From Candidatus Zixiibacteriota bacterium (GTDB taxonomy: Bacteria; Zixibacteria; MSB-5A5; WJJR01; JAJRUJ01): DNA of 50,714 nucleotides. A program made the position numbers and the translations under genes. Positions 32,035 through 43,891 of the stretch are shown piece by piece; positions within the stretch are counted from its first letter, which is position 1, and each line of letters begins with the position of its first letter. Location: the NCBI GenBank assembly GCA_024277855.1, contig JAJRUJ010000031.1, forward strand, positions 1-50,714. The letters are read 5' to 3'. A model generated the notes under the pieces. The model was given only the letters and a program-made list of their open reading frames with translations, did not search any database and was not told the DNA's origin.

Positions 32035-33789
32035 TTATTTCTCGGCCTCGGTCACGATGATCCCCCACATTAGGGGGTCATCGGGTTCAGCGGCGTTATA
32101 ATCATGACAGGAATGGGAACCGTCCGTGATGTAATAAACGACATAATTACCTTTGTCCAGCAAGATTGTCTGATTAACCGCACGGTTCTTTTCGGCCCCA
32201 CCGGCATGATGCGTCTTGCGCGGAGTCATCTCCCAGACAACCTCCCCATGGTCAGCATCTTCGATCCAGCCATAATCGTACATTTCATTACGGTCACCTT
32301 CGCCCACCGCGCGAATATTGACTCTGGTAACTTTTTGCAGCGTAAACCGCGCCTTACGCCGTTCATTATCGCCGACGCAGGTAATGGCGGCCAGCGCACC
32401 AGCCGGGCCTTCGGACGGCTCGAATAACGTAATCAGGCCGGCCGCATCCTGATCGCCGGGAACATAGATGGAAATACCGTATGCCGACTGATCGTAGGGT
32501 GGGGAGGCATTCCAGTCACAATAGGAATGCGAACCATCCGTCAGGTAGTGCACGACATACTCGCCTTTGTCCAGAGTAACGACCCCGTCATACATCCGAT
32601 TTTTGGCGGCCCCGCCGGCATACTCGGTATTGTCGTCATCCATCATCCAAATTATATCGCCGCTGGACGCATCGGTGATCCAGCCATAGTCGGCAAGTTT
32701 ACGATTGTATCGATTATCCTCACCGATGGCATATACTAACAAGTCCGCCGGCTTGCTGAGCTTGAATCCCTTGGAAATAAATTCATTATTGCAGACCTGG
32801 GTTATCTGAATAACCGGCTTTCCGTGCAAAGAGACCTGTTTTGCCTGAATCGCGTCAGCATCGGCTGGATCGGCGGCGCGGATTCGCAACCCCCACGCCT
32901 CCGGATCGTAGGGCGGCGGTTCGTTCCAATCACCGGCAGTATGAGAATCATCGGTGACATAGCAGGCCAAATACTCACCCACAGGCAAAGTAATCGTTTC
33001 CCGCACCACACGGTTTTTTTCGGCACCGCCCGCCCAGTCAGTATTCCAGCGATCCATTTCCCAAACACGCTTGCGTGTCTTGGTGTCGGTGATCCAGCCC
33101 CAATCAACCATCATTTCCGACCACTCGGAGTATTCACCGGCCGCGTAAATTTCCAACTCGATCTCTCGCGTGAGAACAAATCCTTTACGCTCGTAGGCAT
33201 CGTTGTCCGGGTTCGTCAGTTCTATCGCTGAGGGTGGTGGGCCGGTTATCCCGGAAGATTTTGAGACTGCCTTGCTGTCGGTGGAAAGACGGATATAGTA
33301 CTCCCGGGCCAGATCGCGATCCGACGGCCGATCCTTGGAACCCAGGACATCTTTGAGCAGGTCCTTCAAGTCGCTAAAATCATTTACGCTGCCTTTCATC
33401 ATCCCGACCGGTTTCCCGGCGTAAAAATACAGGTCGTACGTGCCGGGCTTGAGAGAAATCTCATCATCAAAATCGCGCAGGTAGACATTGTTCTTATGGC
33501 GATGCGTAAACTCCTCTTCCATCGACCAGACAACTTCACGCGAAACCGCATCGAGCAGCCAACCGTAGGCAAACATCCGATCGGTTCGGTTGTGATAGCC
33601 CCCAACAGCTTCGATAAGCACATTGAGATCATCGGTAACGGTGAACTCCGCGCTCTTGATCATCTCGGGGCGAAAATGATCCAACTCGACTATTGTATAC
33701 TCTCCGGCAGAAACCAATGGGGCAACACTCAATACTATGCACAAGGCCAGCGCATACCTCAACTTGTCAGACATCGCCATCTGCCTCAT
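32035..33789 (-). CDS. Secreted four-repeat protein of unrecognised family
   Basis: The product of about 584 residues has a signal peptide (KLRYALALCIVLSVAPLVSA). It then has four related units of about 110-120 residues. The last three are clear and share the order: N-terminal beta strands, DYGWITD/YGWIED, a VWEM or IIWMM strand, AGGAEKNR, a LDKGEYVVHY-type strand, TDGSHS or TDDSHT, DWN-PPYDP and WGIxI. The first is more diverged (AYGWLLDAVSREVVWSM, LKPGTYDLYFYAG), and a helical linker of about 60 residues follows it. ATG 33789 is preceded by GGTGGG; in-frame ATGs at 33780 and 33774 are alternatives. I do not recognise the family. All-beta repeats with conserved Trp, Asp, Asn and His suggest binding domains, but that is inference. 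Transcription ends at the shared terminator. Confidence 0.75.
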   Translation of the reverse strand: MRQMAMSDKLRYALALCIVLSVAPLVSAGEYTIVELDHFRPEMIKSAEFTVTDDLNVLIEAVGGYHNRTDRMFAYGWLLDAVSREVVWSMEEEFTHRHKNNVYLRDFDDEISLKPGTYDLYFYAGKPVGMMKGSVNDFSDLKDLLKDVLGSKDRPSDRDLAREYYIRLSTDSKAVSKSSGITGPPPSAIELTNPDNDAYERKGFVLTREIELEIYAAGEYSEWSEMMVDWGWITDTKTRKRVWEMDRWNTDWAGGAEKNRVVRETITLPVGEYLACYVTDDSHTAGDWNEPPPYDPEAWGLRIRAADPADADAIQAKQVSLHGKPVIQITQVCNNEFISKGFKLSKPADLLVYAIGEDNRYNRKLADYGWITDASSGDIIWMMDDDNTEYAGGAAKNRMYDGVVTLDKGEYVVHYLTDGSHSYCDWNASPPYDQSAYGISIYVPGDQDAAGLITLFEPSEGPAGALAAITCVGDNERRKARFTLQKVTRVNIRAVGEGDRNEMYDYGWIEDADHGEVVWEMTPRKTHHAGGAEKNRAVNQTILLDKGNYVVYYITDGSHSCHDYNAAEPDDPLMWGIIVTEAEK

Positions 33790-33948
33790 GGTTTCCCACC
33801 GCCTAACGTTTTGCCGTCCCAACTGTTATCTCCAGAAGTGGATACGGTTAACCCGGCAGATAAGTTTCATTTACCTCCCGGGAACCGGAACTTATGACAA
33901 CCGGCGGCGTCCGAATAACTTATTGTCACCCTGCGTGTTATCGGGGGG

Positions 33949-35301
33949 CTAATAATCGGTCTTCCCGGTAAATCTAAAAGACCCCACGCGCATCGCCGGT
34001 GCCGTGATACAACCAAGGGCATCCCACCACGTACTGACCAGTTCACGTTCGGCGGTCAGGCCACGAATGTCGGAAAAAACCCGCAGCATGCTGTCGGTGA
34101 ACCGCAGGTTTTTGACGCCACCCCGCAACTTGCCGTTCTTGATGCGAACGAGACCATCCCGGGTCATCCCGGTGAGGACACCATTGGGCGTATCGATAAA
34201 CCCATTGATATAATGGAACCGGGTAACCAGCAGACCGTTTTCCACCCCCCCGATAAGTTCATCGAGTGTTTGGTCACCACCGGCGACAAACAGATTAAAG
34301 GCCAAACCGCCCTCACCGGCGTCGTTGGGAGTCAGGGCATTCCCGGTCGATTTTTTATTTTCCCTGGCCGCCGACATCGTGTCGTAAGTTACGCCTTTGG
34401 CCACACCGTCGGTAATCAACTCGACCTTACGTTTCGGCGTCCCCTCAAAATCGAACGGGAAAGGCGCGGCGGTCGGGTCTGTCGCATCATCGTAGATCGT
34501 CAACTGCTCGCCGGTGATTTTCTCACCGATACGACCGGAAAGGAAACTCGTCTCTTCCTGGAATGATTTCGAGCCAAAACCGATATAGTTTAACCACTCC
34601 AACAGGGTAGCCACCGCGACCGGTTCGAGGACAACTTCGTATTCGCCCGGGTCAATATCTTTTGGGTTACGGCATTGATGCGCGCGCTTAATCGCTTTGG
34701 CGCCGATACTGCGAATATCGACCTCCCCCACTTTGCGCGACATCCCCTGGCCGAAGCCCGAGCTGGTATCGGTCATTGCAATCGCCGCCGCCGCCGCGGA
34801 GGTAAACGGCTGGTAAGCATTAACCCCGGCGGTGTTGACCACGGCCAGCTCTCCGGACCCGGTGCTGAACGATCCGGCCAGGTTCATCTGTTTGGTCGCC
34901 GCCCGCTTGAATATTGTTTTCAGTTTGCCGGCCCGTTGCCGGGGCGAAAATTTCGCCGTCTGTTCATCAAAGGTCGGCAAGTCAGGATAGTCCGCCGCCG
35001 TCGGCGGCCCGAGATAGTAAGGATTCTCCTGCTGGTTTCGCGCGATTTGCATCGCGTTTTTCAATGCCCGCCGAAGATCGGTAACTGAAAAGGCGTTGGT
35101 TGCCGCCACGCCGATCTTCCCGCCCAGGGCGACGCGGAAAAATGTCTTGCTGTTGGTCTCGGCAACATTCTGATGGATGTAGTTATTGGCAAAGCGGGTC
35201 AGCCCCGATTCGCTGCCGATAAAAACGGCTTCGGTATGGTCGGCCTTGGATGAGGCAACGACCTTGTTCAAAGTCTCAAGTAGACGTTCTCGGCCGATCA
35301 T
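33949..35301 (-). CDS. TldD/PmbA family protein, TldE-like subunit
   Basis: The 450-residue protein belongs to the TldD/PmbA family but lacks the HExxxH zinc motif, as expected for the TldE (PmbA) partner. It has family segments RFANNYIHQNVAETNSKTFF (residues about 36-55) and TPNDAGEGGLAFNLFVAGGD (about 327-346), plus a C-terminal VLTGMTRDGLVRIKNGKL. In known systems TldD and TldE form a heterodimeric peptidase that trims unfolded or modified peptides. The start overlaps the tldD stop (ATGA at 35301-35298), which supports a heteromeric complex. The substrate is unknown. Confidence 0.87.
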   Translation of the reverse strand: MIGRERLLETLNKVVASSKADHTEAVFIGSESGLTRFANNYIHQNVAETNSKTFFRVALGGKIGVAATNAFSVTDLRRALKNAMQIARNQQENPYYLGPPTAADYPDLPTFDEQTAKFSPRQRAGKLKTIFKRAATKQMNLAGSFSTGSGELAVVNTAGVNAYQPFTSAAAAAIAMTDTSSGFGQGMSRKVGEVDIRSIGAKAIKRAHQCRNPKDIDPGEYEVVLEPVAVATLLEWLNYIGFGSKSFQEETSFLSGRIGEKITGEQLTIYDDATDPTAAPFPFDFEGTPKRKVELITDGVAKGVTYDTMSAARENKKSTGNALTPNDAGEGGLAFNLFVAGGDQTLDELIGGVENGLLVTRFHYINGFIDTPNGVLTGMTRDGLVRIKNGKLRGGVKNLRFTDSMLRVFSDIRGLTAERELVSTWWDALGCITAPAMRVGSFRFTGKTDY

Positions 35302-36740
35302 TGCATCACCCCCACTTCGATATTGCGAAACCGGCTGGGCGAAGTGCCGTGGGCCACGCGGGCGGTTTGCATCGGCTCACCCTTGCCGCAGTTGGCCACT
35401 CCCCAAACATGCCAGTGCTCTTTGTTGCAGATTGCATCGCAACTGTTCCAGAATTCCGGCGTGATGCCGGTATAGAGCGGATTTTTATACATCGTCCCTT
35501 TTCCCCCGCCCCGGATCTCCCAGGCCGCCTCCACCCCAAACATAAAATTCAATCGCTGGTCGTCGATCGACCATGACTTGTTCGTTTCGAACAACAGACC
35601 GCCCTCGGTGTCAGCCAGGAGATCGTCATAAGAAACATCACCCGGTTCGAGATTAATATTGGTCATCCGGATCAGGGGAATGCGATTCCAGCCGTCGGCG
35701 CGCATCGTGCCGTTGGATTTGCGGCCGATCACCGGCGCGGTTTCACGCGACGTCAGATAACCGACAAACAGGCCGTCGCGGATGATAAAGTCGCGTGCGG
35801 CGGGCACCCCCTCATCGTCGTAGCCGAATGTACCCAACCCATTGGGCGAGGTGGCATCGGCGACGATGTTGACGATTTTCGAGCCGTACTGCAACTTATT
35901 CAACTTCTCCAACTGCATAAAGCTGCCGCCGGCCAACGAAATTTCCGTGCCCAACACCCGGTCCAACTCGGTCGGATGGCCGCAGGATTCATGGACCTGC
36001 AGGGCCAACTGGGAGGGGCCGATGATTATATCGCGGCGTCCGGCGGGTAATGGTGGCGCCGCCAACAGAGCCACGGCTTCCTCGCGGACACGTTCGGCAT
36101 GGTCGAGCAGGTTCATCTGTTCGACAAATTCGAACCCGCCGGTACCGAAATCCCCGCCGTGTGAGTTGGGGTAGCTCCGCTTTTGCACATCGGACCCCTC
36201 GACGGCCGTGGCGGTATATCCCGCACCCGACTGGAGAATATCCTGCTCAATTTCCGCTCCCTCGGTCGAACAGAATACCTGGTGTGTCTTGAAAAAAGCC
36301 AGTGACGATTCGGCAACTTTGATCTTGGAATTTTTAGTCAGAATCTTATTGATCTTGAGCAACAGGTTAATCTTCGGCTTCAAGCGCACGGCAAACGGAT
36401 CGGTAACGAACGGTGTGGCATACGAACCGATCTGCGGCTCAACCTCGGCAAGGCGAACGTCCTCTTTTTTGGTCAGCGCCGAGGCCTTACCGATATTGAT
36501 CGCCCGGTTGGCAATTTTGCGCATCTCGGCGGCGGTGCAGATCGACGACGAGGCAAATCCCCAGGCCCCATCGACAATTACCCGGATACCGAATCCCTGG
36601 TCGATGTCTTTGGTCAGCGTATCGACGGTTAGGTCGGTGACGCGGATCGACTCGGTCTCGATCCGGACATAGCGGATATCGCCATAGTCGACTCCTTTTG
36701 ATTTAAGGTAATCGACTACGGTTTTCAATTTATCTTTCAT
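35298..36740 (-). CDS. tldD: TldD family metallopeptidase (catalytic subunit)
   Basis: The 480-residue protein carries the family zinc motif HESCGHPTE (residues 250-258; HExxxH) and the C-terminal NKEHWHVWGVANCGKGEP segment. The N-terminal domain shows DIRYVRIETE and GFGIRVIVDGAWGFAS. Together with the downstream TldE-like subunit it should form a cytoplasmic peptidase. ATG 36740 is preceded by GAGGAGGG. No peptide-toxin (microcin-like) or modified-peptide gene is recognisable beside it, so a general peptide clean-up role is the more likely one. Confidence 0.91.
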   Translation of the reverse strand: MKDKLKTVVDYLKSKGVDYGDIRYVRIETESIRVTDLTVDTLTKDIDQGFGIRVIVDGAWGFASSSICTAAEMRKIANRAINIGKASALTKKEDVRLAEVEPQIGSYATPFVTDPFAVRLKPKINLLLKINKILTKNSKIKVAESSLAFFKTHQVFCSTEGAEIEQDILQSGAGYTATAVEGSDVQKRSYPNSHGGDFGTGGFEFVEQMNLLDHAERVREEAVALLAAPPLPAGRRDIIIGPSQLALQVHESCGHPTELDRVLGTEISLAGGSFMQLEKLNKLQYGSKIVNIVADATSPNGLGTFGYDDEGVPAARDFIIRDGLFVGYLTSRETAPVIGRKSNGTMRADGWNRIPLIRMTNINLEPGDVSYDDLLADTEGGLLFETNKSWSIDDQRLNFMFGVEAAWEIRGGGKGTMYKNPLYTGITPEFWNSCDAICNKEHWHVWGVANCGKGEPMQTARVAHGTSPSRFRNIEVGVMQ

Positions 36741-43024: not shown

Positions 43025-43765
43025 CTATTTCTCGTAGATACCCAACTCGGAGAGGGCGGCAGGATAACGCTTTTGCAGGTCGGAGCGGATTTTTTTGCGG
43101 GCGCGGTGGAGATACCAGCGAACCGTCGCCTGCGGCATCCCCATGATATTCGCGATCTCGTCGATTTCGAGGCCTTTGACATCTTTATATAAAAACGCAT
43201 CGCGTTGCTTGTCGTTGAGCTTTTCGGCGGCCACCATCACGTAGTTCTTCAATTCCTTGAGCTGAAAAAGCTGCTCAGGATTCTTGATATTGACTTCTTT
43301 TGATTCCTTGATATCGTCAAGTTCCTCAAATTTATGTTTGCGGAACTTGCGGACATAGTCAATCGAGGCGTTGACGGCGATCCGGTAGAGCCAAGTGGAG
43401 AACCGCTTACCGGTGTCGAACCGGTCAAGATTATAGAAGGTCTTGACAAACACCATCTGGGTGATATCCTTGGCATCGTCGTTGTCCCCCACCATCTTAA
43501 ATGCAATCCCAGTCACCTGGTTCCGGTAGCGGTCGACCAATTTACTGAACAGCTCCTTATGGCCGGCCTGGATCTTCTTGATGATCCGTTTAGTATCGGC
43601 CTCCATCTCGTCACGGGCTTTGTCCGATTCCGAGACAATCCTGGTCGGCTTGCCGTTTCCACCGGATTTTACGGTGACCGGTGGTGTTTTTTTGCTTTTT
43701 CGGCCCGATTCCGCCACTAAGCTTCTCTCGTCCGTCCCTGTCGGGACTGTATTCCCGGCACTCAT
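43025..43765 (-). CDS. ECF-type RNA polymerase sigma factor with long N-terminal extension
   Basis: The 246-residue sigma factor has region 2 (LVDRYRNQVTGIAFKMVGDNDDAKDITQMVF and FSTWLYRIAVNASIDYVRK, residues about 78-140; quoted in parts) and region 4 (GLEIDEIANIMGMPQATVRWYLHRARKKIR, about 200-230). A basic, Ser/Thr/Gly-rich, probably disordered extension of about 55-60 residues precedes region 2. ATG 43765 has GGAG about 8 bases upstream; a TTG at 43795 is the alternative. No anti-sigma gene is adjacent. The signal it answers is unknown. Confidence 0.88.
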   Translation of the reverse strand: MSAGNTVPTGTDERSLVAESGRKSKKTPPVTVKSGGNGKPTRIVSESDKARDEMEADTKRIIKKIQAGHKELFSKLVDRYRNQVTGIAFKMVGDNDDAKDITQMVFVKTFYNLDRFDTGKRFSTWLYRIAVNASIDYVRKFRKHKFEELDDIKESKEVNIKNPEQLFQLKELKNYVMVAAEKLNDKQRDAFLYKDVKGLEIDEIANIMGMPQATVRWYLHRARKKIRSDLQKRYPAALSELGIYEK

Positions 43766-43891
43766 ATTCAACTCCGGGGTGTAATCTTTGACCAACTAAA
43801 TATAACTAATCCAATTGAGTTCTGTCACCTTGAAACAGATACCCGGGGAAAAAAACCACGCATCACCCATTTCATACCTCATCTTCCCCAG

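Follow-up and report, generated by a model that had tools for sequence, protein, structure and literature searches.

Jelly-roll modules of the PPC, CUB and GOLD sort mostly act in binding and are exported or lumenal. The GOLD domains of p24 proteins belong to the eukaryotic secretory pathway. In the regulators that carry Reg_prop repeats, the propeller-bearing part is presumably the periplasmic part. Histidine is an unusual calcium ligand in general. For the CUB domain of C1s, PMC4222235 places Asp53 in the calcium site and describes Glu45, Asp98 and Ser100 as contacts of a lysine of the ligand.

We analyzed a repeat protein encoded in a window of 50,714 nucleotides, the whole stretch of contig JAJRUJ010000031.1 of a Candidatus Zixiibacteriota bacterium, and compared it with these modules. 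The gene is a single open frame, is present as a single copy in its own assembly, and has full-length homologues; an in-frame TTG upstream at 33822 is an alternative start. The features of the gene are as follows.

32035..33789, minus strand: four-repeat gene, ATG at 33789, stop ending at 32035, 584 residues
33706..33789, minus strand: signal-peptide-like N-terminus, residues 1-28, a by-eye reading of the sequence
33421..33675, minus strand: copy 1, residues 39-123, profile domain, divergent, with the fold residues kept and the polar motif gone
33223..33420, minus strand: linker after copy 1, containing a stretch modelled with low confidence
32881..33222, minus strand: copy 2, residues 190-303, profile domain with the full motif
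32464..32811, minus strand: copy 3, residues 327-442, profile domain with the full motif
32053..32388, minus strand: copy 4, residues 468-579, profile domain with the full motif

The first 28 residues show, by eye, a basic start, a hydrophobic core and a cleavage-like VSA end. This agrees with the original prediction of a secreted protein, and the four-repeat protein is probably exported, being either periplasmic or secreted. The likeness among the four copies is far above chance. BLASTP gave E values of 2.6e-38 for copies 2 and 3, 3.6e-27 for copies 2 and 4, and 1.6e-33 for copies 3 and 4, and the pairwise identity among these three copies is 41-45%. The E values for copy 1 against the other copies were 2.9e-8, 6.1e-11 and 3.3e-11. 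Copy 1 contains the YGW element together with the W and G-x-Y core, and its sequence lacks AGGA-KNR, TDGSHS and DWN..PP. Thus, the prediction of four repeats is correct as to the number of copies, and the signature that had been ascribed to all of them is complete only in copies 2-4. Likewise, the predicted repeat length of about 115 residues is that of the domain, and copies 2-4 recur with a period of 138 residues, corresponding to direct DNA repeats 414 nt apart. Copy 1 precedes copy 2 by ~155 residues.

To describe conservation, residues are numbered by alignment A3, which comprises 60 copies from 20 loci and includes one protein twice (L022 = L031). The copies were counted in 76 four-copy proteins, which were taken from the best-matching loci with exactly four profile hits required, proteins with other hit numbers or with frames cut by the locus ends being left out, and which were deduplicated only where the aligned domains were identical. 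In copies 2-4 of these proteins, E31, D41, G66, G67 and N71 were each present in 228/228, K70 in 227/228, and D92 and H95 in 227/227, in copies found by a profile that had been built from motif-bearing copies and is biased toward conservation of the motif. The motif residues are therefore kept in homologues, and the loss that the original prediction had named as evidence against itself did not arise. In the same set of proteins, copy 1 showed a different pattern. W44, W55 and G83 were present in 76/76 and Y85 in 75/76. Position 41 was mostly A, V or S (46, 9 and 9 of 76), and E was outside the three commonest letters at position 31. N71 was found in 6/71 and K70 in 10/74, and copy 1 was mostly unaligned beyond position 90, with a letter at position 92 in 19/76. 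R72 may be structural, since copy 1 keeps it in 49/74. From the pattern in the sequences, in which the polar set disappears together but the fold is retained, the set is best interpreted as a single functional site, and its residues would cluster in space. The original prediction left the choice between a binding and a structural role. A role of this kind is supported, and a binding site is favored over a purely structural one because copy 1 keeps W44, W55, G83 and Y85 but has little of the polar motif left. Copy 1, from which the site has been lost as a set, provides a natural control for testing the function of the site.

The family had not been recognized in the original prediction, and the searches agree with this. 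The four-repeat protein matched none of the families in Pfam (2025) and NCBIfam 20.0 at E up to 1, so that the hit to a characterized domain that would have spoken against the prediction did not appear in these libraries. A sequence search of solved structures gave nothing significant (best E 0.68 for the protein and 0.49 for the repeat profile). In the literature searched, coverage of which stopped short of subscription journals and preprints, no account of the domain was found. Relative to the libraries searched, the domain represents a new family with a common fold, and not a new kind of system. It is likely that the fold class is known and that the family is unplaced.

Some homologues matched the glycogen-binding family AMPK1_CBM (PF16561), which suggests an alternative in which the repeats would be relatives of the AMPK/CBM48 family and act as carbohydrate-binding modules. 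Such matches were obtained at E up to 1 for 13/32 homologues (best 1.1e-6), where the 32 rows count one protein twice (L022 = L031). When 20 homologues were scanned singly, one of them, L027, exceeded the cut-off (29.2 versus 26.8 bits), and two of six further homologues matched below the cut-off. However, PF16561 did not match the four-repeat protein itself. The matching stretches in the homologues were partial, and none of them alone passed E 1, or E 0.01 in the single scans; the best ones covered ~27 to 45 residues of the 85-position profile, around the G-x-Y...TD-x-S strand. The matches being weak and partial only, membership of this family was rejected, and we regard the relationship as very improbable.

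The original prediction had proposed structure prediction of one repeat as a check. Copy 3 modelled alone gave a confident jelly-roll sandwich with a mean pLDDT of 96.3. The full model (557 residues) had a mean pLDDT of 87.3 and a pTM of 0.78; its low-confidence stretch in the linker, with pLDDT below 50, comprises model residues 102-125, which are protein residues 129-152. The best structural neighbors of the single-copy model were the PPC domain 5sv5 (Z 8.4, rmsd 2.7, 88 residues aligned), the Kremen CUB domain 5fwt (Z 8.1, rmsd 2.2, 86 aligned), the CUB1 domain of C1s 1nzi (Z 7.8, rmsd 2.3, 88 aligned) and the GOLD domain 5azy (Z 7.3, rmsd 3.3, 86 aligned). PPC, CUB and GOLD are tied in Z, near a level that models lacking a clear match often reach. 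Foldseek found no match to the single-copy model at E up to 0.001, the top match being the GOLD domain 5azx (E 3e-3, probability 1.00). With the full model, five chains reached E 0.001 or better, of which 8h3u was the best (2.3e-5); these chains are of little use because their TM-scores are all 0.14 or less. Among the best 50 structural matches, neither a catalytic domain nor an AMPK-type module was seen, and judging from the aligned ranges, the peptidases among them seem to be aligned via accessory sandwich stretches.

Copy 1 was also modelled as a sandwich, with blockwise pLDDT of 85-95 across model residues 1-100. Its region aligned to the GOLD domain 5azy (model residues 6-144, Z 7.2) and to 8zi4 (model residues 3-147, Z 6.6), matches that represent the GOLD and CUB folds. 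This bears on the alternative that the polar set only stabilizes the module, by calcium or by a salt-bridge network, in a protein that serves as a structural spacer or an envelope scaffold. Jelly-roll modules in general often carry structural calcium, and residues such as G66-G67 and P105 are commonplace in loops, as this alternative would expect. On the other hand, the model gives copy 1 the same type of sandwich even without the polar set. We consider a purely stabilizing role unlikely, with further evidence for and against it in the distribution of the domain described below.

The domain was compared with each of the three known families. Like PPC, it is a predicted jelly-roll and is found in a probably exported protein, PPC often being an accessory module, and PPC was the first structural match by a small margin. 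However, the polar signature of the domain is absent from an alignment of 18 PPC stretches, and no Pfam match was obtained: the PPC profile (PF04151) had 0 matches in the own genome, while as a control it matched in 3/14 genomes. When alignments A3 and A4 were compared by hhalign with the 18 PPC stretches, which came from the own phylum, the scores were 13.3 and 13.4, and the best of 100 column shuffles reached 16.5 and 18.7. Membership of PPC was rejected, the profile comparison being no better than shuffles. The GOLD domains of p24 proteins are beta-sandwiches of comparable size, but their Z value is tied with those of PPC and CUB, and their sequences were compared via Pfam alone. The hhalign scores against eight solved CUB stretches were 12.1 and 12.0, and the best of 60 column shuffles reached 19.4 and 21.6; with the profile scores under the best shuffled controls and no Pfam match, membership of CUB (PF00431) was also rejected. 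Moreover, the cysteines of CUB domains are conserved, whereas cysteine is found neither in the consensus nor among the invariant columns of A3.

Despite these differences, the domain and CUB resemble each other in their polar residues. All eight CUB sequences share an invariant E, an invariant D and a further invariant D downstream, and the order of E, D and D-x-S in the domain is the same. In copy 4, the E is followed 8 residues on by a D preceded by Y and then by D-x-S; the spacing is the same as in CUB, and the strand order fits. The predicted strands of the single copy are 22-33/38-47 and 71-80/83-90; if these pairs form hairpins, E31 would face residues 40-41, and residues 70-72 would face residues 91-93. 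By this likeness to the CUB calcium ligands, metal dependence of the module is plausible, and the calcium-site analogy, which is our working basis for the metal, has about an even chance of holding. The domain differs from CUB in having H95, K70, N71 and the W100-N101-P105 loop as additional invariant or near-invariant elements. Nothing in the CUB site corresponds to H95 or the GG-x-x-KN turn, and these two could point to a different metal, to an acidic ligand or to some other chemistry.

Taken together, we propose that the protein is an exported string of four jelly-roll modules, in which the polar site of copies 2-4 binds a ligand, likely via a divalent cation. We give this reading as a whole an equal chance of being right or wrong. 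Copies 2, 3 and 4 would each hold one polar site, made of E31, D41, the G66-G67-x-x-K70-N71 turn, D92, H95 and W100-N101. The ligand of this site would be extracellular, and the most likely link to it would be a divalent cation, for instance calcium, held by E31, D41 and D92 as in calcium-binding CUB domains. Copy 1 would be a degenerate, probably structural, cap. In this scheme, we infer the ligand, the metal and the location of the protein.

Relatives of the whole protein were present in 44/58 near genomes, and the repeat profile A3 matched in 80/132 genomes of the own phylum. The four-repeat protein looks dispensable in many lineages, because 52/132 genomes of the phylum, including 26/78 of good quality, were without a match. 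A wider sample gave matches in 89/386 genomes (E up to 0.01), nine of which were outside the own phylum, among ~254 genomes (the 386 minus the 132 of the own phylum). Searches centered on four of these nine genomes found the domain in 1/1, 13/80, 39/40 and 39/82 genomes, and in the phylum with 39/40, all of the 23 good-quality genomes matched. Such an even presence fits a structural envelope protein and is a point in favor of the purely stabilizing role. The domain occurs in at least six phyla of the genomes searched, since the four genome lists do not overlap and none of them includes the outside genomes G183, G191, G209 and G326. A domain that carries an invariant polar site and is this widespread gave no match in the Pfam and NCBIfam searches. 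No relatives were found in plasmids and phages with the single protein as the query, nor in viral contigs with the copy-4 alignment as the query. A contig scan with the single protein gave three loci only and is no measure of spread.

The four-copy layout predominated. Among 93 distinct repeat-bearing frames inside the fetched loci, with frames touching the locus ends left out, 72 had four hits, four had three and one had six; the remaining 16 had one or two hits, and comprised 13 fusions and three frames that were short, masked or split. In the 76 four-copy proteins, the closest copy in another protein was the one at the same position for 220/228 of copies 2-4 (copy 4, 75/76; copy 3, 73/76; copy 2, 72/76), a count that is aided by close relatives. 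The mean identity was 49% between proteins at the same position versus 45% between positions within a protein. By this same-position similarity, the four-copy layout looks old and inherited as a unit. Variants of the layout were also observed. A four-copy homologue of 719 residues (L132, contig G021:C91, 4278-6434) has an insert of ~130 residues between copies 3 and 4, which is charged and, by eye, probably helical. A version of 852 residues (L169, contig G493:C51, 2896-5451) has six copies, a divergent first copy followed by five more. In L134 (contig G387:C253), the four-copy gene seemingly lies in two frames, owing to a frameshift or an assembly error.

The module is also found in other proteins. 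Twelve long frames (907-1518 residues) from two other phyla carry one or two copies each, and two shorter frames, L166 and L158 (cut, 730 residues), carry it as well. When five of the twelve long frames were scanned with Pfam, Reg_prop was found in 5/5, Y_Y_Y in 4/5, and kinase or SpoIIE-type outputs in 4/5; the fifth, L157, had propeller-type matches only. The module sits inside the propeller-bearing part of these regulators. The Reg_prop/Y_Y_Y two-component-type regulators thus share the module with the four-repeat protein, but in them it is an insertion among propeller repeats, whereas here four modules make up a chain of their own. Among 17 fused copies, D41, N71, D92 and H95 were kept in 17/17, E31 in 16 with a D in the remaining one, K70 in 13/17, and S94 in only 7/17. 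Most fused copies hence lack the serine that would correspond to the ligand contact of CUB, which speaks against the CUB analogy. A further protein from the class to which the window belongs (L113, contig G057:C106, 5219-6934) is of the beta-lactamase family (PF00144) and has one C-terminal copy; against NCBIfam it scored far under every cut-off among the matches listed.

Single or double copies within sensor propellers, and once after an enzyme, are more natural for a binding role than for a purely stabilizing one. They also bear on the alternative that the module is a small enzyme, such as a hydrolase or a lyase, with D92, H95, K70, N71, E31 and D41 as the active site. A histidine kept in 227/227 together with Asp, Glu, Lys and Asn exceeds what is seen in many binding modules and would suit catalysis, but three tandem sites, like single copies joined to sensors or to a separate enzyme, are typical of binding modules and atypical of enzymes, and we consider an enzymatic module improbable. 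Returning to ligand binding, the module among the propeller repeats of the sensors would let those regulators see the same class of ligand. A broader form of this proposal is a new family of metal-dependent extracytoplasmic modules, in which the soluble protein with one degenerate and three active copies, retained over a long time, and the reused, ligand-sensing inserts of the membrane sensors in these phyla would recognize the same envelope or environmental molecule; this extension is tentative, and we hold it to be possible though on the less probable side. As sensor regulators contain this module too, its ligand would also reveal a signal to which these bacteria respond.

Two genes lie next upstream of the four-repeat gene in the window.

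33949..35301, minus strand: PmbA/TldD-type peptidase gene (Pfam, NCBIfam), next upstream
35298..36740, minus strand: second PmbA/TldD-type peptidase gene, TldD-like (Pfam, NCBIfam), next upstream again

PmbA/TldD genes were found upstream on the same strand in 12/30 neighborhoods of the own phylum and in 0/14 outside it, where the neighboring open reading frames were chosen by length and some may be spurious, chiefly in GC-rich loci. Both genes were present in eight of the 12 linked neighborhoods, the PmbA-like gene alone in three and the TldD-like gene alone in one, with two of the 12 being the same gene (L031, L065), in loci that encode identical proteins in identical order. PmbA/TldD genes were absent from the stretch read in 18/30 neighborhoods of the phylum. 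One locus, L109, gave no repeat frame when picked by length and is outside these 44 neighborhoods. We treat the linkage to TldD/PmbA as conserved gene order and not as a mechanism.

Genes for a heptosyltransferase and a lipid A acyltransferase lie further upstream in the window. In two related genomes, an exported-looking protein of 315-335 residues is encoded directly after the four-copy gene (L128, 5219-6223; L131, 2113-3057), and the one in L128 had no match in Pfam. ECF sigma factor-like genes are near the four-copy gene in L066, L068, L110 and L133, the assignment in L110 and L133 being made from the start of the sequence only; those of L066 and L068 fall into one cluster with the window's sigma-70 gene (43025-43795). 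In two loci of the same genus, L108 and L111, the four-copy gene lies between an Omp85-superfamily gene and a DUF4097 gene on the same strand, as assigned by Pfam on L108 only.
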